Source: a virus | Strand: one strand, 5' to 3' | Virus record (IMG/VR): IMGVR_UViG_3300017971_000553 | Location: 1 to 35,065 of that record | DNA: 35,065 nucleotides | Part shown: positions 2,886 to 24,491 of the stretch, piece by piece | How the letters are laid out: each line of letters begins with the position of its first letter | Position numbering within the stretch: position 1 is the stretch's first letter | Notes under the pieces: generated by a model | What the model was told of the DNA's origin: nothing | What the model saw: only the letters and a program-made list of their open reading frames with translations | The model's database searches: none | Translations under genes and position numbers: made by a program

Positions 2886-4124
2886 CTAGAAGTCAATCGC
2901 ACTTTCTTCAACATCAATACTTGCCCCCTCTTCTCTTGCGCTGAAATCCATCGAATCCAAATCCCATCCCGTCACAAAGTCAATGGTTTCACCTTCTCGG
3001 TGTTTTAACAACTTCATATACATCTCCCTGCTCTTTTTCAGATTATCATCTCGATACATCCCAATGATCCCATCAAACCACTTTTGAATGTCACCATAAG
3101 CCAATGTATCGGCGCTTCCTTTGTCTTCAACGCCTGCGAGGTTAAATTGATGACTGGCTATCGTGAGCACTTCTCGACGTTTTGTCATTGCCTGCAAATC
3201 TTCCGATACATTATTGATTCTTTCTGAGATTGATTTCCCCTTCCGTTCGTCGGGAATCATATACAATCCATCGATCAACACTATTTGGGGCCTATGTTTA
3301 TCGATCTTCGCCTCTATCGAAGAAACACCACCCACGCCATCACTTCCGCCGACGATGTGAATCATCGGCCTACTTCTCATCTCCTCCCAGACCGAAAATA
3401 ATCTACTCTCTTCGGTCTGCGTTAAATTCCCCTCCCTAAATCTTCGGTAAGAGATACCCGCATGAATTGCGTCGAATCTTTGACCCAACTGCCACGGCTC
3501 CATCTCCTTAGTCATGGCAAGAACGCGATACTCCTGAAACCAAAAATGTCGCGCAAGAACCACTATACACCAGCTTTTGCCTACGCTCGAACGCGCAGCA
3601 ATGAGCCAAAACTCCCCAGACTTCAAACCTAACGTTGCTCGATCCAATACTGACCATGGAGTCGTAAACCCTATGATGCCTCCACACTTCTTTGCCTCTA
3701 AGTATCTAAGCTTTCTCTCCTCTGTCGACTGAGTCAGCTCCAAGTCTCTCGACTCCACCACACTAAGCTCAGCCTTATGTATCATCTTCTTGAAAGAATC
3801 TAATGCCCTCATTGGTTCCTTCTTTTTCAGATGATCCACCGAGTCCTTAACTGTCTGAGAAATCAACTTGTGCGTATATCTCTTCTTCATTTCCTCGAGA
3901 AGAACAGAATAAGGAAGAGAAAGCTTTCGTAACTCATATCCTTTGAATCGATTACAAAAGATATTCTCAGGGGGAGAAACACCGTGTTTTAAGTAGTATC
4001 CTTGAATATACTCCCATTGCTCTTTGTGCGTAGAGAATAAGTCTAGAGTCACCCCTAAATCCAACACCGCCACTATGTCGCCGTCAAGCACCACACCGGA
4101 GATCAGCCCTCCCTCATAATCCAC
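2886..4124 (-). CDS. DnaB-like replicative helicase
   Basis: This 412-residue RecA-fold ATPase has its Walker A at residues 177-185 (ARSSVGKSW), preceded by the DnaB-family lead-in FTTPWSVLDRATLGLKSGEFWLIAA. The Walker B is IVLIDG (281-286), and SHQFNLAG at 324-331 corresponds to the motif after Walker B in DnaB proteins. The N-terminal 130 residues are helical and would be the primase-interacting and hexamer-forming part. It should unwind the fork 5'-3', loaded by the DnaC-like protein at 7659-8264 and working with the primase at 835-1818. It is shorter than bacterial DnaB (about 470 residues). The start is GTG at 4124, with GGAGGG 9 bases upstream, just after the previous stop. Confidence 0.9.
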   Translation of the reverse strand: MDYEGGLISGVVLDGDIVAVLDLGVTLDLFSTHKEQWEYIQGYYLKHGVSPPENIFCNRFKGYELRKLSLPYSVLLEEMKKRYTHKLISQTVKDSVDHLKKKEPMRALDSFKKMIHKAELSVVESRDLELTQSTEERKLRYLEAKKCGGIIGFTTPWSVLDRATLGLKSGEFWLIAARSSVGKSWCIVVLARHFWFQEYRVLAMTKEMEPWQLGQRFDAIHAGISYRRFREGNLTQTEESRLFSVWEEMRSRPMIHIVGGSDGVGGVSSIEAKIDKHRPQIVLIDGLYMIPDERKGKSISERINNVSEDLQAMTKRREVLTIASHQFNLAGVEDKGSADTLAYGDIQKWFDGIIGMYRDDNLKKSREMYMKLLKHREGETIDFVTGWDLDSMDFSAREEGASIDVEESAIDF

Positions 4125-7658: not shown

Positions 7659-8264
7659 TCACGCTCCCTTTTTCAGTTTTCTCGTGTCTGCCAGTTTGAC
7701 CTCAATAGGTCGAAGATATCCACCGAATAACGACCCCAACGTCTCACCGTAAATCTCAGAAAATTCCTTCGGCGTCATGTTCGAGGTAATCGTTGTCGGC
7801 CTCAAATAGTCATACCGATATCGAATCAATAACCGCAATACTGTCTGAACATATCCAGACATCCCTCGATACTCTTTCCCAATATCATCGATGATCAGAT
7901 GAGGAACATCATGAATCCTCTTATACATCGAAATGTTAGCCGTATCGTCCCACAGATTAGTTCTATCGACAAACGCCTCCTTGATTCGGTCAGGCGTTAT
8001 CCAGTGAGCCCTGTGATCATACGTCATCAATCCACACTTCAAAAGCATTGACGCCAGATAAGACTTCCCCGCTCCGTTAGGGCCGTACAAGTAATACCCT
8101 CGACAATCCGTAATATCCTGCTCCATTTCATCGATAACTCCCTCCATAGCCTCAATCTGCTCATCATATAAGGCAGCAAACTTTGCATGCCAATAACGAG
8201 GAGGAACTCCCATTACCTGAAGATAACCTACCGTTAATTCTATATTCTTTCCCATTTTATCCAT
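7659..8264 (-). CDS. DnaC/IstB-like helicase loader ATPase
   Basis: This 201-residue AAA+ ATPase has Walker A GPNGAGKS at residues 61-68, Walker B LIIDDI at 123-128, and the ITSNMTPKEF motif (159-168) typical of DnaC/IstB/DnaI loaders. Arg185 is in the right region for an arginine finger. It would load the DnaB-like helicase onto the origin after the initiator has melted it. The gene follows the initiator gene directly, the same order as lambda O then P, or DnaC-type loaders in other phages. The N-terminal 55 residues would contact the helicase. ATG 8264 is preceded by AAGGACAGGG. Confidence 0.88.
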   Translation of the reverse strand: MDKMGKNIELTVGYLQVMGVPPRYWHAKFAALYDEQIEAMEGVIDEMEQDITDCRGYYLYGPNGAGKSYLASMLLKCGLMTYDHRAHWITPDRIKEAFVDRTNLWDDTANISMYKRIHDVPHLIIDDIGKEYRGMSGYVQTVLRLLIRYRYDYLRPTTITSNMTPKEFSEIYGETLGSLFGGYLRPIEVKLADTRKLKKGA

Positions 8265-8295: not shown

Positions 8296-9927
8296 TCACT
8301 GGTCTTTCGTCAACTCTGCCGCCCGTAACTTTCCATCAGTCACGAACCGATCCCTATGCCAACCTAGTTCTTTTATCTTTCGCAATCCCGCGATTACTGC
8401 GTCCCCCGAAAAATCGAATTCCTCGTATGAAATCACGTCCACACCCCCCGGTGCACGAAGCTCTAATCGAGCTTTCATCCCCTTTTTTGTCGCCGCCACC
8501 ACCCACAGAGATTCCTGACTCGTATCTATAATTTGCTTTCTCAGTTTCTCTGGTTGGTCCCCTGTCCACTCCCCTTGTAAATGCGCAGGCTTCTTTTCTT
8601 TCGCTATTTTCGGCGCAGCTCCCTTCTCATACTCCAAGGCGAATGAATTATAAAAACCCAATAGACATCCAACGGTTATCGATCCTGTTACGCCATATTT
8701 CGCCTGTAGCTGTGGCCAATACTTTACGCAATAATCGAGATACCCCTTTAAGTTTTCAGGCGTATCATCGGCCATCAATGACAACATTTGAGTCCCTGCT
8801 TTTCCCCATTCTTTGAATGACTTCGGCGCATACCCCCGCTGAGAAGCTTCATCCTGAAGATAACGTACCCAATCCTTGGCGTTATAGTCTGAGATAGGCT
8901 TTGTTTTGTATCCATCCGCTGCCTCTGGTGGCGTAGTCTTCGATTTACTCCTTGCTTTTTTCTTGGGTTTCTTCTCCGCTTTCTTCTCCGCTTTCGGCCT
9001 AAGATGTCGCCGTCCGATTGACGGCTCAGAACGAACTTCTTCCAACATTAACGGTAGTTGCTCAGGAGAACCGCTTACCTGCGGCTTTTCACTCGGAACA
9101 ACCACTCTCTCCTGTGACTCTCCACTTGTCGATTCACTCTCTCGATTCAACCGAAGAAGTTCCTGCAATCCCTTCGGGCCGATAACTCTCATGATTCCCT
9201 CCTCTCCTAACACTCCAAAGGTCTCACTCAATAAGTCGAAAATGAGATCCAGACCCCCACTTCGCTGACAGTATTCTGAGAAATAATCAAGACTCTCCAC
9301 GTCGCGCGTCTTTTTTATATTAACGTCAGACGACGATGTTTGATCAATCGTGGATCTTATTTGATCGTTCTTATTTGTTGGACTTTGGATGTTGGTTTCG
9401 ACGTTGTCGAAACATCTCTCTTTTAGTTCTAATATTGTTTTTAGTGTTAAAGCTAATATATTCTTATATGTTTCCTCAGATATTAAATAAGATTTTAATA
9501 TATAATCATAACTATCATAGATAGGCGTTTCAGTGTCAGAAACCCGTTGAAATTTCTCAGTTTTTCGGTCGATAACCATTTGGGGTTTTTCAGGGTCAGG
9601 AGTTTCAGGGTCAGGAGTTTCAGGGTCAGGAGTTTCAGGGTCATTTTGTTGTTGACTTCCAGTGCCGGCTTGAAGGCCCCGATCAACAATCCCCTCAAAT
9701 TGATATACCCATTCTTTCCGTCCGGATCGCTGGCACGAAATAAGATTAGCCTGTCTGAGTTTCCGCAATCGATAGGATACAGTATCCCTCGATACACCGA
9801 TCAACTCCGCTACTCTGGCATGGGGAATAAACGCACCTGCCTCCTGATGCTCATAAATGAGATAGAGAATTTCTCTGTCTCGGTTGTCCAATAGTTGACA
9901 CCTTTTTATCGCGGATTTAATCGACAT
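8296..9927 (-). CDS. Replication initiator with N-terminal winged helix
   Basis: This 543-residue protein begins with a winged-helix domain (about residues 10-80; the recognition helix region is ELIGVSRDTVSYRLRKLRQANLI). A DPETP pentapeptide repeat (four units) follows, encoded by 15-bp DNA iterons, then a long polar linker, a lysine-rich patch (RPKAEKKAEKKPKKKARSKSK), and a helical C-terminal domain with NAKDWVRYLQDEA and LKGYLDYCVKYWPQL. This layout fits a phage replisome organizer: origin binding at the N-terminus, loader/helicase contacts at the C-terminus. The DnaC-like gene lies directly downstream. I chose ATG 9927 because AAGGAGAG lies 5 bases before it. The frame is open 22 codons further upstream but overlaps the neighbour there. 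The gene also appears to contain the origin itself. Confidence 0.78.
   Translation of the reverse strand: MSIKSAIKRCQLLDNRDREILYLIYEHQEAGAFIPHARVAELIGVSRDTVSYRLRKLRQANLISCQRSGRKEWVYQFEGIVDRGLQAGTGSQQQNDPETPDPETPDPETPDPEKPQMVIDRKTEKFQRVSDTETPIYDSYDYILKSYLISEETYKNILALTLKTILELKERCFDNVETNIQSPTNKNDQIRSTIDQTSSSDVNIKKTRDVESLDYFSEYCQRSGGLDLIFDLLSETFGVLGEEGIMRVIGPKGLQELLRLNRESESTSGESQERVVVPSEKPQVSGSPEQLPLMLEEVRSEPSIGRRHLRPKAEKKAEKKPKKKARSKSKTTPPEAADGYKTKPISDYNAKDWVRYLQDEASQRGYAPKSFKEWGKAGTQMLSLMADDTPENLKGYLDYCVKYWPQLQAKYGVTGSITVGCLLGFYNSFALEYEKGAAPKIAKEKKPAHLQGEWTGDQPEKLRKQIIDTSQESLWVVAATKKGMKARLELRAPGGVDVISYEEFDFSGDAVIAGLRKIKELGWHRDRFVTDGKLRAAELTKDQ
9330..9535. other. AT-rich segment inside initiator gene, candidate origin unwinding region
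   Basis: By eye this stretch is far richer in A and T than the neighbouring DNA (for example around 9420-9525, with runs such as atattaaataag and taatatataatc). It follows the iterons on the coding side of the same gene. That is the arrangement of lambda ori inside gene O, where iterons are followed by an AT-rich melting region. The encoded protein segment is a low-complexity polar linker, which would tolerate such composition. Confidence 0.5.
9588..9643. repeat. Tandem 15-bp iterons within initiator gene (candidate origin)
   Basis: Three exact copies of TTTCAGGGTCAGGAG lie at 9588-9602, 9603-9617 and 9618-9632, followed by an 11-base partial copy at 9633-9643. A degenerate copy (TTTCAGTGTCAGA) sits at 9528-9540. 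The unit length of 15 keeps the reading frame and encodes the repeated DPETP motif. Iterons inside an initiator gene next to AT-rich DNA suggest binding sites for the initiator. A simple protein-level repeat is the alternative. Confidence 0.75.
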
Positions 9928-10701: not shown

Positions 10702-10726
10702 GATCATTGTCCGCCAAACAATGATC
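10702..10726. promoter_or_regulatory. Perfect 9+9 inverted repeat, candidate operator
   Basis: GATCATTGT (10702-10710) and ACAATGATC (10718-10726) are perfect inverted copies separated by 7 bases. No T-tract follows on either strand, so it does not look like a terminator. It lies just downstream of a TTGACA-type promoter candidate and upstream of the first replication-module gene, where a repressor dimer would block transcription. Confidence 0.55.
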
Positions 10727-13103: not shown

Positions 13104-13140
13104 AAAAACGGGCGATTCGTTAGGTGGAAACGAATCGCCC
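13104..13140 (-). terminator. Rho-independent terminator, minus strand (second of two)
   Basis: A perfect 12-bp stem pairs 13110-13121 (GGGCGATTCGTT) with 13129-13140 and closes a 7-base loop. On the minus strand the hairpin is followed by GTTTTTG, giving a standard GC-rich-stem plus U-tract terminator for leftward transcription leaving the tail module. Confidence 0.82.
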
Positions 13141-13315: not shown

Positions 13316-13696
13316 CTACAAAGCAAATGCCATTTGAATGTATTCGGAGGGAGCGTCGCCCGTTTTATAAACCCAAATCTTTACGCCCGCCGCGGTCAAT
13401 CCGTCGAGAATATCCTGCGGGAGTTTCATCGCTAATCGACGCACTGCGGCATAAGTGCCTCGTCCGCTGTCGGGATATGAACCCTCGAAGTCTCCATCCT
13501 CACCCTCAGCCGTAAGACCAGCTTGCCATGCCTCAGCAACCCAGTCCCAGTATTGGTTATCACTGAGTCGTTGAACTTTGACCTTGTGCTTCCCTTTTTG
13601 GGAAGTCTCTGCAATAAGGTTCCCTGGAACACTGGAATCGGTTCCTGCCTGGGAAGAGCCTGCGAAAATGTCGTATCCTATCTTCAAATTTGCCAT
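13316..13696 (-). CDS. Hypothetical late protein, 126 aa
   Basis: This is the last gene of the tail module before the terminators. The protein starts MANLKIGYDIFAGSS and has a small mixed fold, with an acidic Gly-rich segment (EGEDGDFEGSYPDSGRGTY) and a helix (AAVRRLAMKLPQDILDGL). Its place after the repeat protein and at the end of the structural operon suggests a virion component, such as a fibre accessory or decoration protein. No family is recognised. Confidence 0.7.
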   Translation of the reverse strand: MANLKIGYDIFAGSSQAGTDSSVPGNLIAETSQKGKHKVKVQRLSDNQYWDWVAEAWQAGLTAEGEDGDFEGSYPDSGRGTYAAVRRLAMKLPQDILDGLTAAGVKIWVYKTGDAPSEYIQMAFAL

Positions 13697-13759: not shown

Positions 13760-15560
13760 TTATACCTCTTCAATTGCGGGAGTGCTTATTGCCGCCGCTA
13801 CGTGAGCGTTATAGTCGGTTTTAATTTCGTTCAACAAGACCCATAGTTGGGCGCTCGTTGTAACGTCGGCGGCGGCGGTGACGTTCGTTGCGTCATTCAC
13901 TGCGTGAATTGTCGCCTGGGTTCTGTGGGCGTTATAGTCCGCCTTGATTTCGTTCGCGAGCGCTATGGCGGTGTCGATGTCGGTCGCGGCGGCGGCAGCT
14001 ACTGCGTTCGTAGTGTCGGGGTTTTCGTGCATTCCCGTGGTGGCCCGGTGAAGATTATAATCGGTCTTTATCTCGTTCGCGAGAACATAGGCACTAGCAA
14101 GATCCGTTGCGTCGGGCGCTGCTATCCCGTTAGAGGTGTCGTTTGTTGTATGAACTCCTGTCTCGATCAAGTGAGCGACATAATCAGTTTTTATCTCGTT
14201 GAGTATGGCGAAAAGTCCTGCCGTTGTCGTTATATCTGGCGCTGTCGTGGGATTTGCAGCGTCGTTGCTGACATGAACACCAGCCTCGACCCGGTGAAGA
14301 TTGAAGTCAGCTTTTAGCTCCGTTATCAGAGTGATCGCGGTGTCGATATCGCTGGCATTGGCTGCAGCAATGGCGTTTGTGGCGTCAGCCTCAAGATGTG
14401 TACCCGTAACGGCAATGTGAAGGTTATAGTCCGCCTTGATTTCATTGGCTAAGGTTTCCGCTGAGGCTAGATCGGTGGCGTCGGGAGATGTAACAGCATT
14501 GCCCGCGTCGTCCAAGTTGTGAACGTTGGCCTGACTTCTGTGTGCGTTATAGTCAGCCTTGATCTCATTGACTAGGGTTTGCGCGGAGGGAAGATCTGTC
14601 GCGTTCGCGGAAGCGATAACATTCGTGGTGTCATTTCCTTCGTGGACACCCGCCTCTACACGGTGCGCGTTGAAATCAGCCTTGATTTCATTGACTAGCG
14701 TTTGAAGTGAAGCGAGATCGGTTGCGTCTGCGGATGTTACATCATTGGCCGTGTCCGCTGTATCATGAACGACCTCTTCCGCTCGATGTGCCTCGTACTG
14801 TGTTTTGATGTCGTTCAACAGAGTGTAGGTTGTAGCCAAATCTGACGCGTTTGCCGCAGTTACCACGTTTACAGTGTCATTCGCTCGGTGAACGCCACCC
14901 TCTATTCGGTGCGCGTTATAATCCACCTTTAGCTCATTGGCTAAGGCGAAAAGCTCAGTCTCCCCATTCGCATCGGTCGACGTGACGATGTTTGTGGTGT
15001 CATCAACAGCATGAACTGTCGCCTGTGTTCTGTGTGCGTTATATTGTGCTTTCTCATCATTGAGAAGAGTAATAAGAGTCTCTCGAGTCGTAGCATCAGC
15101 CGAAGCAACTACGTTGACGGCATCGGCCACATCATGAATGTCCGCGGTGACTCTATGAGCCTCATACTGTGTTTTGATGTCGTTCAGCAAAGTCAACGCC
15201 GTCGCTAAACTGGTGGCATTGGCGGCGGTGACTATGTTTGTCGTGTCGTTTGTTTTGTGGACTGTTGCCTGCGTCCTGTGTGCGTTGAAATCTGTTTTGA
15301 GTTCGTTCGCCAAAACATACAGCTCGGCTTCGGCGTTCGCGTTTCCTGCAGCGATGGTATTCGTGCTGTCGTTGCTAAGATGGACACCACCCTCGGTCAA
15401 GTGAGTCGTGTAATCGGCCTTTAGCTCATTGGCCAGAGTGATAAGGGTTTCCCTTGTGGTAGCATCAGCAGAGGCCACACTAGCAGCCGACGCCGCCATG
15501 TGATCGCCGTTGGTTCCCGTAGAGGCAAGATGTGTATTCAGCTTGCCCTTCAGTGCATTC
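13760..15560 (-). repeat. 123-bp-period degenerate tandem repeat array within coding sequence
   Basis: The DNA encoding the 41-residue units repeats with a 123-base period, about 14-15 times. Phrases such as the one encoding NEIKADYNAHR recur with synonymous changes. Copies differ in codon use, which indicates older duplication followed by divergence. Unequal recombination could change copy number in frame. Confidence 0.75.
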
Positions 15561-15766
15561 GCAAGAGAGATCCCTGTGGCTAAGTCGGAAGCATTGGCAA
15601 TGCTCTCTCCTTGTCCTACTTTTTTGTGAAAAAGAGTAGCGTCACCTCCTGCCACTCCTTTGATCGCATCCTCTCGAAGACCGACCAAAAAAGCATGCAA
15701 TTCCTCTGCAGCCTTGCCGCTTGCAGAGAGATTAATTAGATCCCGTTTCGTTAGTGTTTGACCCAT
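13760..15766 (-). CDS. Repeat protein with about fifteen 41-residue repeats, probable virion fibre
   Basis: This 668-residue protein has a unique N-terminus of about 65 residues (MGQTLTKRDLINLSASGKAA...). About fifteen tandem repeats follow, each near 41 residues. The unit reads roughly DATDLASAxTLANEIKADYN, AHRxxxxVHxxxDTTNxVxA, with an L-x-N-E-I/L-K-x-D-Y/F-N-x-H core and a conserved later VH and D-x-T/A-N. Each repeat would give one long helix and a polar loop with two histidines, suggesting an extended rod or a metal-binding bundle. GGGAGGG lies about 8 bases before ATG 15766. Position after the tail spike and glycosyltransferase suggests a virion fibre or neck/whisker protein. Similar repeats occur in other phage proteins of unknown role, as I recall them. 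Confidence 0.8.
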   Translation of the reverse strand: MGQTLTKRDLINLSASGKAAEELHAFLVGLREDAIKGVAGGDATLFHKKVGQGESIANASDLATGISLANALKGKLNTHLASTGTNGDHMAASAASVASADATTRETLITLANELKADYTTHLTEGGVHLSNDSTNTIAAGNANAEAELYVLANELKTDFNAHRTQATVHKTNDTTNIVTAANATSLATALTLLNDIKTQYEAHRVTADIHDVADAVNVVASADATTRETLITLLNDEKAQYNAHRTQATVHAVDDTTNIVTSTDANGETELFALANELKVDYNAHRIEGGVHRANDTVNVVTAANASDLATTYTLLNDIKTQYEAHRAEEVVHDTADTANDVTSADATDLASLQTLVNEIKADFNAHRVEAGVHEGNDTTNVIASANATDLPSAQTLVNEIKADYNAHRSQANVHNLDDAGNAVTSPDATDLASAETLANEIKADYNLHIAVTGTHLEADATNAIAAANASDIDTAITLITELKADFNLHRVEAGVHVSNDAANPTTAPDITTTAGLFAILNEIKTDYVAHLIETGVHTTNDTSNGIAAPDATDLASAYVLANEIKTDYNLHRATTGMHENPDTTNAVAAAAATDIDTAIALANEIKADYNAHRTQATIHAVNDATNVTAAADVTTSAQLWVLLNEIKTDYNAHVAAAISTPAIEEV

Positions 15767-17360: not shown

Positions 17361-20300
17361 TCAAGTAGCGCTGCTTAGATATACGTCGTCCCCTGTAACA
17401 GAAGTGATATCTGAATTTGTAATAGAGGGAGTTGTCCCGGACGTTGACATAAAGACATTGCTGTCACTCAAACAACCCCTTCCGGCCATAATTAGAGCCT
17501 TACCACTGGAGACATTCGCCCAATATCGATTATTAGTGAAACGACACTGATCGGTTAGACCTAAGCTAACCTCAGTCACTGTTCTCGCTACCGCGGAATC
17601 GATCTTGAAATCACATCGATCAATTACAAGATTCGACGGCATCCCTACCACGGTTATCAGCGCCGTCGCCGCGTTCGGCGTAACTCGAACTAAAAAGTCA
17701 TGTAACGACGCAAAATCCGCCATCTCTATGATAAAAAACTTGCCTGCGTTGTTATATATACTCCTGATTTGTCCGGAATACACATGACAATCTGAACCAA
17801 TATGGATATCAGATCCCACCGTCGGAACATACCCATTAGGCGAAAACTCCAACTCATATGCCTCAACTCCCTCCTCGAGCCACACACCGCCAATATAAAG
17901 AGTGGACGTTAACGGTGCCGCCGCGCAGTCAATAGAAACTCTCCTCAATGACGCAAACTCTGCCGCTAGAATATTCCCTAAGGTGGTAACAGAGCTCGAT
18001 GCACCGTCACAGTTTACAATTGCCAACCCGTTTATCGACGGTCTAGCAAAACCAGAATCCCCTACAATATCCACCCATGAACCATAGTTATTAACCTTAC
18101 CCTTTAGCAGCCTAGTAGCACTCGGTTCATTGTTATTGGTATCAAACACCATATCGTTAACTGATAAGCGCGATTCCTCAACGGCAGGCCCATACATCAC
18201 TATTGGCGTATTTCCCGGAAGATTGGGAATACTGGGATCTAACACCACCAACAACCCATCAATGATGGATTGACAGGGATTGCCTGTTCCTGTACCGGCC
18301 CTTGCGCCGAATTCTATCCAAGGACTAGTACCAGGCTGTTTAACAATACTGTCGCCTATGCTGATCTCACAGTCTCGCATCACAAAAGGAGTACACCCGT
18401 AATACGTTAGGGCCTGTAATGTCGATCCCGTAGTCACGTCACCGCACCGGAAGAAGCACCCCATAAACACCACGCCCGAATTCCGAACATCGAGCAACGC
18501 TCCGCTAGCGTTGTTAAACTGACAATTGACGAACCTTACGTTAGTCGCCGCGCTGAGGTATATCAATACCCTGTCGCTGTCTGAATCAAAAGAACAATTA
18601 TCAAAGGTCACCTGCATATCAAAAACATTAACAATCTGAACAGCATAGGTATCGCCCACAGCAGAAAACCGACAATCCTTGAAGTACAACCCCTCTTCAT
18701 ACTCCGCCGTTGCGCTTATGTTCTGGATATAAATTAACGCCTCCGGAGTTATAGCGGACGACGATGGACCGGAAAAGTGACAGTTCTCAAAATACCCTCT
18801 AGGAGGATATGTTGGATTGTAATCGATAATCTCCAACCCATAATCCTCCGTAGATATTGACGTCGAATTCATGGTTACGTTTCGCATCGTGGTGTTTCCG
18901 CCCACTATCCGAAATGCACCGGAGTCAAAAGCTACATCCTCTAGAATAACCTCCGAAATGTAATCCACTTTCCACTTATAAGATGAATGCAAGCTTTTGA
19001 GCGTAACCCTTGACCATTTACCGTCAAACTCAAAGTCAGACGACGTTCCTACCGGTAGATAGACGGAACACGAATCCTTAGACTCGCCACAAACCCACAC
19101 GTCCTTCGCTAGCGCTGCTATGGCGTTCCAAGTATACGAGCCTCTCCGGAGAAAAAACACACCATTAGTGAAGTCGTTCATGTGATCGACGGAATCCGTA
19201 GAGTCGTAGTCACCCCCCACAGACGTTGCTCCGTGCGTCAATACGGCGGTAAACGCCCGACGCCGGACAACCGTTTCGTCGATCCGGGCAATCGCATCCT
19301 GTAACGTTCCGGGGTCCAAGTCGCCTAAACCGCCAGCTCCTGTGTCGGTTAGCGTTCCGTTCGCGAAGTCGGTGTTGATTCCTATGTCCTGACCGGCCCT
19401 GTTCCCTAGATCGGTGAGTAACTCCGAAAATGCGCTTTGAACATTCGTTGACGAGAGAATACCCACCGGAGTAAAGGCCACCTGTGACGCCGTAATAGAG
19501 TGAGGATCGCCTGCGTCATTGATATGGTCTATCAGTGACTTTCCGGTGTTATAGTACGCGACGGAATGACCGTATAGTCCGTCAACGAGCGGACCCGCTG
19601 ACCCTCGAGTAAACTCGAAGCTTTTTAGGTATCGAACACCAAACCCGAACGACGTCGGAGTTGACGGGATAGTTGTTGTGTTTTCTATCACCCGAACCGT
19701 CCACCTTAGCTTGCTCCGGTGCGCCGTCTCTATCCCCGAAAACGGGTCGGTAATCGCAGAATCCTCTTCTTCCGCAATATCCTCCCACCACGCCATGATG
19801 TAACCGGTGTCTGTTTGGGGAAAAGCACCGGGGACAGTAAGCACGGGCGGTTTGACTATAAATGTATCTCCCACGCCGATGGCACCGATTCCCGCGCCGA
19901 GCGTCAACGTCGTAGATGTATATCCTGTAATGTCAAAAGTGTTTCCACTCTCAGCGCCTGACGTCATGAGAACATAACAAGCGCCATGGTTTGCCGTCGC
20001 CACTAAATCCATGAATGCCTGAAATTTCTGCTGAACATCTGTTATCTTATTGGTGGCGCCGTCAATTCCGGTAACCGTCCCTTCAACAATATAATTTTCG
20101 TCGTCAATATATTCGACGTCAGCCGGTGGATCGGCCTTGGTGGTCGATATCATAGCTCCTTCGACCATGGCCCATCCCGCGCCGATATTGAAATTCTGAT
20201 TTGTAGGAACGGCAGCCGACCCAAATCCAAAACCGGTGCCTACCCTAAATGTTCCAATGAAATATTCGGAAAGAAGTTGTATCCATATCCTCAAATTATC

Positions 20301-20417
20301 CTGGAGTTCATTCAAATCGGCATCCATAACGGGAACACCCTGCTGAATGGAAACTCTTTGATACTCCTTGGTGACATCAAAAGTATTTCGACTGACATTA
20401 GGGGTATTCCCTGGCAT
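17361..20417 (-). CDS. Tail spike/fibre with DUF6519-like N-terminus and right-handed beta-helix
   Basis: This 1018-residue protein starts with a virion-attachment domain. Residues 10-40 (RNTFDVTKEYQRVSIQQGVP, then VMDADLNELQD) match the FDxxKxYxRVxxQQGxxxxDADxNE signature of baseplate-associated proteins known as DUF6519 in injection-system clusters. From about 380 on it has serial beta-helix rungs (MRNVTMNSTSIS, YFENCHFSG, LYFKDCRFSAV, VTFDNCSFDS, VRFVNCQFNN). The repeated CxF steps are typical of pectate-lyase-like spikes that bind or cut surface polysaccharide. It is the likely receptor-binding protein. It follows the gpI-like gene, the usual place for fibres. GGAG precedes ATG 20417. Catalytic residues cannot be assigned by eye. 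Confidence 0.85.
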   Translation of the reverse strand: MPGNTPNVSRNTFDVTKEYQRVSIQQGVPVMDADLNELQDNLRIWIQLLSEYFIGTFRVGTGFGFGSAAVPTNQNFNIGAGWAMVEGAMISTTKADPPADVEYIDDENYIVEGTVTGIDGATNKITDVQQKFQAFMDLVATANHGACYVLMTSGAESGNTFDITGYTSTTLTLGAGIGAIGVGDTFIVKPPVLTVPGAFPQTDTGYIMAWWEDIAEEEDSAITDPFSGIETAHRSKLRWTVRVIENTTTIPSTPTSFGFGVRYLKSFEFTRGSAGPLVDGLYGHSVAYYNTGKSLIDHINDAGDPHSITASQVAFTPVGILSSTNVQSAFSELLTDLGNRAGQDIGINTDFANGTLTDTGAGGLGDLDPGTLQDAIARIDETVVRRRAFTAVLTHGATSVGGDYDSTDSVDHMNDFTNGVFFLRRGSYTWNAIAALAKDVWVCGESKDSCSVYLPVGTSSDFEFDGKWSRVTLKSLHSSYKWKVDYISEVILEDVAFDSGAFRIVGGNTTMRNVTMNSTSISTEDYGLEIIDYNPTYPPRGYFENCHFSGPSSSAITPEALIYIQNISATAEYEEGLYFKDCRFSAVGDTYAVQIVNVFDMQVTFDNCSFDSDSDRVLIYLSAATNVRFVNCQFNNASGALLDVRNSGVVFMGCFFRCGDVTTGSTLQALTYYGCTPFVMRDCEISIGDSIVKQPGTSPWIEFGARAGTGTGNPCQSIIDGLLVVLDPSIPNLPGNTPIVMYGPAVEESRLSVNDMVFDTNNNEPSATRLLKGKVNNYGSWVDIVGDSGFARPSINGLAIVNCDGASSSVTTLGNILAAEFASLRRVSIDCAAAPLTSTLYIGGVWLEEGVEAYELEFSPNGYVPTVGSDIHIGSDCHVYSGQIRSIYNNAGKFFIIEMADFASLHDFLVRVTPNAATALITVVGMPSNLVIDRCDFKIDSAVARTVTEVSLGLTDQCRFTNNRYWANVSSGKALIMAGRGCLSDSNVFMSTSGTTPSITNSDITSVTGDDVYLSSAT

Positions 20418-22718: not shown

Positions 22719-24491
22719 TTAGCCTAATCCACCCACCAAAGTCAGGTCATAGGTATTGCCTAAGAGTTTTCCGAGCTCAAAGTATTGACTGTCAATGTTT
22801 GCGATGTATCCCGTGGTCTGAATCTCAAAAGTATCTCCCGCACTTGGAGCGATAGCTCCTGCCACCGACTGAATGGTCAACCCCCCATCGTCTGTTGTGT
22901 AGTCGACACCGACTGTCCCTGTCGCAACCTGGATTCCATAATTCAACCCCTCGACCGTGAAGGTGGTCGCAGACGTAAAAATTAACGTCCAATAATCGGT
23001 GAGAGTGCTCAGACCTACAACGGGCGTGAGTGCTATGTCGGTCGTTGCGCCTTCAGTGAGAAGTCTCGCATAAGCTCTCCTCTGAAAACGATTGATGTCG
23101 ACATAATCCACTCCCTCGATATCCTCAATCGTCTTATTCACAAGAGACAATGGAACCTGAGCGCCCAATGATAACGTTTGGGGATGGAGGATTCCTGGGG
23201 CATCGATTGTCCCCTGAACTTCGTCCTCAATTGCTCGCGTTACGTCAATTCTGCGATAATTAGCGAGCATATAAACGGTTATATCCAAGTAAATTTCAAC
23301 AATAGTTACAGCCTCTAACTGCAATATAACCGGGGTCGTTCTTTTGGTATTTAGTAACGCCCCCACTGTGCCAATAAGACCTGATCCTGTTTCAGTGTAG
23401 GGATTCCACGACCCTGTCGGTACTGGATCTGTCCCCTCCTTGGCGAGAATGACTCTCTCAAAAATAGCCCCATCTCCATTCAACGCCTTGGCCTTTGATA
23501 TACCAGAAACACTCTTGGCTATTGCCTCATAATCGGCGTGAGTTACTGCTCTGTCATTTGTGGGATAAGTTGCGGGAGCGTTTATCTTCGCCTCGGCAAT
23601 TGATTCTTTCTCGGCCCCTCCTGAAGGTTGCGCGGGATTGGTCACACTGGTGACAAAAGGATAACTCCCATTCAATCGAGTCAATTTATTGGCGCCGACT
23701 TTGTTTCCATCCCTTCCACCGCCGACCCTGTAACTCGCTGTTACATTATTCGTTCCTGACGCTGGTATCTTTCCATTGGTACCATCTCCGAAAATCACCT
23801 TAGTCTGATCGTACTCGTCGATCTCGGCGAGATAATGCTTATCGAGCGGCCCGCTCGAATTGAAATTGTTCACCTTCGTCCAAGCAACCGCAGGGCCGCC
23901 TTCTGCCACATAAACAACAAGACTCCACGCTCCCGTAGGGTCCGCTGTTATGGGGGATCGTTCCAAAGAAAATTCCTGACCCGCACTCCCGTCACTTGAC
24001 CCCAACGTCTCGTCAATCGTTGTTCCGTGATACGCAGTCTCCCCCGTATACGTTCCCGCACCAACCGCCACAAAGTCGCTAACAAGCTCGAACGTTTCGG
24101 GGTCGCTCCCGTCTGAAGTATCAACCCGAATCTTTTCGCCAGCCGGCACCGTGCCTGCGCCCGATGTAACGAAAGTGAGATCAACTTGGGCGCTCGTCCT
24201 GGGAGACAACGCATAACCCAACCACTTAGCATGTTCGATCACTGACCGACGTTGAACAGCGCTCGGAGGCAACGCCTCGTTCGCACACCTGTCCTGGTAA
24301 TACGAAATATTCCCGGCCATGAATGCAAACAATTCGGTAAGAACCACGCCGAGATCTGCCTCTGACCTGTCCGTCCACTCTGGCGCCGTAACCTCTGCTA
24401 ATTCCAGAGCGTCAGAACGAAACCCCTCAAAATCTCGTGTTCCGAGATCCACCGATAAGGTATCTCCCGACAACGTCGTAATTGAAACCAT
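22719..24491 (-). CDS. Baseplate wedge protein J/gp6-like
   Basis: This 590-residue protein follows the putative baseplate assembly family of gp6/J proteins. The N-terminus LTELFAFMAGNISYYQDRCA, then NEALPPSAVQRRSVIEHAKW is the typical entry helix region. The middle carries a beta domain with EIDEYDQTKVIFGDGTNGKI and ASYRVGGGRDGNKVGANKLT. The later part has AKINAPATYPTNDRAVTHAD, then YEAIAKSVSGISKAKAL. In such baseplates J/gp6 forms the wedge ring joining gp25 to the periphery. GGAGAAAA precedes ATG 24491, ten bases after the gp25-like gene. Confidence 0.9.
   Translation of the reverse strand: MVSITTLSGDTLSVDLGTRDFEGFRSDALELAEVTAPEWTDRSEADLGVVLTELFAFMAGNISYYQDRCANEALPPSAVQRRSVIEHAKWLGYALSPRTSAQVDLTFVTSGAGTVPAGEKIRVDTSDGSDPETFELVSDFVAVGAGTYTGETAYHGTTIDETLGSSDGSAGQEFSLERSPITADPTGAWSLVVYVAEGGPAVAWTKVNNFNSSGPLDKHYLAEIDEYDQTKVIFGDGTNGKIPASGTNNVTASYRVGGGRDGNKVGANKLTRLNGSYPFVTSVTNPAQPSGGAEKESIAEAKINAPATYPTNDRAVTHADYEAIAKSVSGISKAKALNGDGAIFERVILAKEGTDPVPTGSWNPYTETGSGLIGTVGALLNTKRTTPVILQLEAVTIVEIYLDITVYMLANYRRIDVTRAIEDEVQGTIDAPGILHPQTLSLGAQVPLSLVNKTIEDIEGVDYVDINRFQRRAYARLLTEGATTDIALTPVVGLSTLTDYWTLIFTSATTFTVEGLNYGIQVATGTVGVDYTTDDGGLTIQSVAGAIAPSAGDTFEIQTTGYIANIDSQYFELGKLLGNTYDLTLVGGLG

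Follow-up and report, generated by a model that had tools for sequence, protein, structure and literature searches.

The initiator gene and its replication module

The window analysed here covers positions 1 to 35,065 of the IMG/VR virus record IMGVR_UViG_3300017971_000553, 35,065 bases in all, which carries tail sheath, tape measure and baseplate genes as marks of a myovirus and has all of its main genes on the minus strand. Because it shows no end repeats, it is possibly a fragment. The gene at 8296–9927 (minus strand) codes for a replisome-organizer-like initiator of 543 amino acids, starting with an ATG at 9927 behind an AAGGAG motif, and hosts the candidate origin described below. A reading made from the sequence only had taken it for a winged-helix protein gene, and this was borne out: the N-terminal DNA-binding domain (about residues 1–80; 9688–9927, minus strand) matches Pfam HTH_24 at 3.9e-6, and AlphaFold predicts a winged-helix fold for residues 11–80 with a pLDDT of about 90 and the element order H-H-H-H-E-E. 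The nearest folds retrieved by Foldseek were MarR/ArsR-type winged helices in the PDB and phage HTH or replication-initiator proteins in BFVD. The C-terminal part of the initiator is predicted with a pLDDT of 39, and the lysine-rich linker ahead of it contains an in-frame tandem repeat of its own (8968–8995, 12 bp × 2.3, coding for AEKKAEKK), which is the second one in this gene.

The family assignment of the initiator was analysed by profile comparisons. It matched phrog_678 ("replication initiation O-like") at 1.1e-6 and, weakly, phrog_345; both families are also matched by the O protein of phage lambda, and these common matches may rest on the winged helix alone. No match to Phage_rep_O (PF04492) was obtained at E ≤ 0.1, while lambda O as a positive control scored 5.7e-36, and Rep_Org_C (PF06926) did not match either (2e-44 for the Tuc2009 control). 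HTH_36 gave an E value of only 0.015, which does not pass the cutoff, and hhalign detected no homology to the aligned family of TP901-1-type (HTH_36) proteins (probability of 0.6%). Judged by these comparisons, the initiator appears to behave as the carrier of an in-gene origin, yet to stand outside the Phage_rep_O, HTH_36 and Rep_Org_C families.

The next gene downstream, at 7659–8264, codes for a DnaC-like AAA+ helicase loader, as had been read from the sequence (phrog_50 at 3.9e-20, together with NCBIfam matches of the DnaI/DnaC type). It is followed on the same minus strand by genes for a DnaB-like replicative helicase (2886–4124; Pfam DnaB_C at 2.3e-24, phrog_19 at 1.5e-44) and a DnaG-like primase with a Toprim domain (835–1818; Pfam Toprim_2 at 2.4e-11, phrog_47 at 2.4e-34). 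An alignment-guided search with the helicase reached distant phages that keep the loader, helicase and primase genes together in the same order, and none of these has a homologous initiator or the array. One of them has, immediately ahead of the loader gene, a gene for a protein with an N-terminus that resembles a winged helix, and no homology between this protein and the initiator of the window was detected.

Searches of IMG/VR with the initiator, the loader and the helicase returned just one record, 3300017963_000580, which is 99.98% identical over the overlap and was the sole relative found in the viral collection; searches of phages, genome contigs and plasmids with the initiator gave no match. 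The initiator gene is free of differences between the two records. The only four differences in the compared stretch lie in the helicase gene at 3279, 3285, 3291 and 3297, exactly 6 bp apart, a pattern that suggests either an artefact of the assembly or some unusual local event.

The repeat array and the AT-rich stretch

The initiator gene contains a direct-repeat array with a period of 15 bp and 3.7 exact copies at 9588–9643 (minus strand); the coding-strand unit is TGACCCTGAAACTCC. This is the top tandem array of the window, with a TRF score of 112 vs. 56 for the next one, and its copies are 100% identical, contiguous and without dyad symmetry. A diverged fifth copy (12 of 15 positions) lies at 9528–9542 on the same strand, where it falls in the SDTETP codons bordering the AT-rich stretch, so that the previously reported 3.7 tandem copies plus one degenerate copy were recovered. 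The core TCAGGGTCAG, allowing up to one mismatch, occurs in the window only at this site and on one strand only. When we scanned for the repeat core elsewhere, the one match besides the near-identical record was a 15-bp array in an unrelated gene for a MoxR-like ATPase. The copies represent candidate binding sites of the initiator.

Read on the minus strand, the unit GAC CCT GAA ACT CCT codes for the pentapeptide DPETP. All copies use the same synonymous codons, which has a probability of about 5e-7 given the peptide and the codon usage of the window, although recent duplication would explain the codon identity as well and this value alone does not prove a role at the DNA level. The data suggest, as proposed earlier, that DNA and protein roles are superimposed in this unit.

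The AT-rich stretch at 9403–9546 is a candidate DNA unwinding element. Its core at 9419–9518 consists of 82% AT, the maximum of the window (next best 68%), and by nearest-neighbour calculation no other stretch of the window is less stable (z of −5.4, next −2.7). We tested for AT excess beyond that expected from the encoded amino acids and the codon usage of the window, using 34-codon segments (n = 4364). The observed AT content was 82% vs. 68% expected, and the best segment reached a z of 5.0 (rank 1 of 4364); the excess is therefore carried by synonymous codons too and is not a mere by-product of the protein. The synonymous excess spans about 9403–9546, whereas 9330–9410 is neutral. Because the effect ends at about 9403, the positions 9330–9402 are probably not part of the element. 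The earlier description of a strongly AT-rich stretch inside the gene is correct in substance, while its left boundary at 9330 was about 70 bp too generous. The gap between the array and the start of the AT peak is also about 70 bp, which is larger than in most of the controls.

Further elements were found nearby. A perfect 8-bp inverted repeat, GTTTCGAC-GTT-GTCGAAAC, lies at 9395–9413, on the side of the AT-rich stretch remote from the array. It is a possible extra origin element, or it may be due to chance; six hairpins of this kind occur in the window vs. zero to five in simulated sequence. An AT-rich inverted repeat, ATATTAAA-TAAGAT-TTTAATAT, inside the stretch at 9480–9501 may likewise have arisen by chance. 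There is no DnaA box near the candidate origin, and the window contains a single TTATNCACA, at 23134. The GC-skew and AT-profile check suggested in the sequence-only reading was run on the window: the AT extreme falls on the site, but with the main genes all on the same strand, gene orientation confounds the skew, which shows no clear sign of an origin.

Comparison with known in-gene origins

The site had been described as a lambda-like origin within the initiator gene. In lambda, four 18-bp inverted-repeat iterons and a 40-bp AT-rich region lie inside gene O (PMC5043065), and the two sites resemble each other in the N-terminal DNA-binding domain, the iterons followed by an AT-rich region in the middle of the gene, and the loader gene (P in lambda) coming next (PMC5043065). 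The lambda iterons, however, are inverted repeats bound by O dimers at a spacing of 20–24 bp, whereas the array described here consists of contiguous 15-bp direct repeats without dyad. Moreover, lambda O belongs to the Phage_rep_O family, which the initiator does not match, and lambda uses the DnaB of its host, whereas this phage has its own gene for a DnaB-like helicase. The in-gene position and the order of repeats and AT-rich DNA are supported, but lambda as the closest model is not. The AT-excess test applied to lambda O placed the within-gene peak on the known AT-rich region (39121–39180; z of about 2.8, not a genome-wide extreme), so the signal of the window, at 5.0, is stronger than that of the control.

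The closest format is that of the 15-bp pentapeptide-coding arrays in the genes of TP901-1, Tuc2009, r1t and similar replisome organizers. ORF13 of TP901-1 and Rep2009 of Tuc2009 bind to direct repeats located within the genes that encode them, and these repeats act as origins (PMC8965321); the Tuc2009 record itself annotates the origin within the rep gene. These lactococcal P335 organizers (TP901-1 ORF13, Tuc2009 Rep2009, r1t ORF11 and ul36 ORF260) likewise carry 15-bp arrays for pentapeptides such as GKDSI or DKNRL, about 100–150 residues into the protein. In TP901-1, the arrays at gene nucleotides 301–340 are followed directly by the AT peak at 353–412, and in r1t (15 bp × 2.7), the next gene is DnaC-like; an AT peak after the array and a DnaC-like next gene are also found here. 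The array of Tuc2009 (15 bp × 3.8) is identical to that of ul36, and in Tuc2009, ul36 and r1t the AT maximum of the gene does not adjoin the array. The P335 organizers differ from the initiator of the window in their C-terminal domains (DnaB_2, Rep_Org_C) and have half its length, and the phage studied here, a myovirus, encodes a DnaB and a primase of its own.

A similar layout is seen in HTH_36-type initiators, which are a different protein family from the initiator described here. In phages 88, CNPH82, LR1 and C1_85S2P, a 15-bp array at gene nucleotides of about 306–395 is accompanied by an AT peak at about 358–459, and in phage 88, as here, a DnaC-like gene comes next. A 15-bp array and then an AT peak come after the N-terminal domain in the window as in initiators of the TP901-1 or phage 88 type. 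The 15-bp arrays of phages 88, CNPH82, C1_85S2P, LR1, Matzah and VanLee, which have very different hosts, lie at or just before the AT peak of the gene and carry no origin annotation in the feature tables consulted. In SPP1, the initiator gene 38 contains oriL, in which direct repeats are combined with an AT-rich unwinding element (PMC6316719). According to the published description, its module of gp38 as binder, gp39 as loader and gp40 as DnaB-type helicase resembles that of the window (PMC6316719); SPP1 differs in having a second origin, oriR, and in relying on the host primase, while the phage described here has its own primase gene. That unrelated initiators have this layout in common is already known (PMC6316719, PMC8965321).

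We further surveyed 12 records chosen by homology to the Rep protein of TP901-1, for which an in-gene origin is already known. All ten full-length initiator genes contained arrays, six of them with a period of 15; the other two records have short annotated HTH-only genes without arrays. In most of the full-length genes, the AT peak overlaps the array or comes directly after it. Across the replisome-organizer genes surveyed, from Lactococcus to Bacteroides phages, most have arrays, mostly of 15 bp, while only one of 38 other genes of lactococcal phages contained an array with a score of at least 46. The array density amounts to 1.68 per kb in initiator genes vs. 0.05 per kb elsewhere (374 kb). 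Because this sample was selected by homology to a known case and is not unbiased, it indicates that the format is common, but not how common.

A period of 15 was observed in 15 of 25 in-gene arrays vs. 4 of 18 elsewhere (Fisher p 0.03, calculated over cases that are not independent). Fifteen base pairs correspond to one pentapeptide and about 1.4 helical turns. An objection that repeats of this length fall out of phase with the helix and hence do not resemble iterons was dropped, since established lactococcal origins have a period of 15. Our tentative proposal, which we consider doubtful rather than probable, is that in-gene iterons have converged repeatedly on a 15-bp format in initiators without detectable homology, including that of this phage, and that this format is set jointly by the reading frame and the spacing of the winged helices. 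The frequency of the 15-bp unit may be less widely recognised than the layout itself, and such a recurring five-residue unit would provide a testable design rule.

A candidate origin within its own initiator gene

The site is very probably a phage replication origin embedded in its own initiator gene. The best array and the least stable DNA of 35 kb lie close together inside an initiator-like gene, so that tandem repeats in the gene of a DNA-binding initiator adjoin an easily melted stretch, and the genes for the loader, the replicative helicase and the primase complete the module, an association that is usual, not universal, for such origins. The literature behind this reading (PMC8965321, PMC6316719, PMC5043065, PMC7466680) makes the site a new example of a design long known from lambda, SPP1 and the lactococcal phages, rather than a surprise. 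The N-terminal winged helix would bind the four to five 15-bp repeats, and the resulting nucleoprotein complex would destabilise the adjoining AT-rich stretch of about 140 bp on the C-terminal-coding side. The C-terminal part of the initiator may then recruit the DnaC-like loader, which would load the DnaB-like helicase of the phage onto the separated strands before the phage primase begins synthesis. The repeats and the AT-rich DNA lie where the protein probably needs just a linker, which allows one stretch to be both site and coding sequence.

The main rival, which we regard as improbable, is that the array is a slippage-made, low-complexity DPETP linker without a role at the DNA level, that the AT-rich stretch reflects a segment rich in K, N, I and Y or foreign codon usage, and that the true origin lies elsewhere, possibly outside the fragment. 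Exact repeats may indeed be a recent slippage product in such a linker and count against an origin, as do the distance from the array to the AT peak, the AT maxima of Tuc2009, ul36 and r1t that lie away from their arrays, and the confounded GC skew. The AEKKAEKK repeat in the same gene, the similar 15-bp repeat in the MoxR-like ATPase gene and the fact that the window is probably a fragment all fit the rival reading. It is opposed by the AT excess in synonymous codons, the strongest of the window, and by the recurrence of array and AT-rich stretch at the corresponding place in initiator genes known to carry an origin, while arrays are rare elsewhere. Less probable still, and quite unlikely, is an internal regulatory site serving autoregulation of the initiator or as an internal promoter for the loader and helicase genes: promoter-like matches occur on the coding strand at 9539–9511 and 9533–9505, at the edge of or in the AT-rich stretch, but they are not commoner than in shuffled sequence (6 found vs. 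8.8 expected), and an array with unstable DNA beside a loader gene suits an origin better, although both roles could coexist. That the initiator is truly homologous to lambda O and its origin of the lambda type is very hard to sustain, since the weak phrog_678 and phrog_345 matches and the same order of iterons and AT-rich DNA are set against the missing Phage_rep_O match and the 15-bp direct repeats in place of 18-bp inverted ones.

With the in-gene origin as the preferred reading, a likely replication origin has been located in a myovirus that is uncultured and of which hardly any relatives are recorded. This reading also suggests a simple flag for origins of metagenomic phages, namely an in-frame array with synonymous AT excess in a winged-helix gene beside a helicase loader gene.

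The window contained no Rfam families or tRNAs. The gene at 13760–15766 (668 aa), which has no clear family, contains diverged internal DNA repeats (14423–14943 and others) and shows a reversed GC skew compared to the rest of the window. The protein encoded at 17361–20417 (1018 aa) matches right-handed beta-helix proteins, which makes it a probable tail spike or fibre. A perfect 12-bp stem with a following T run at 13110–13140 on the minus strand is a likely terminator downstream of the gene at 13316–13696, and a perfect 9-bp inverted repeat, GATCATTGTCCGCCAAACAATGATC, in the intergenic region at 10702–10726 represents a possible operator.
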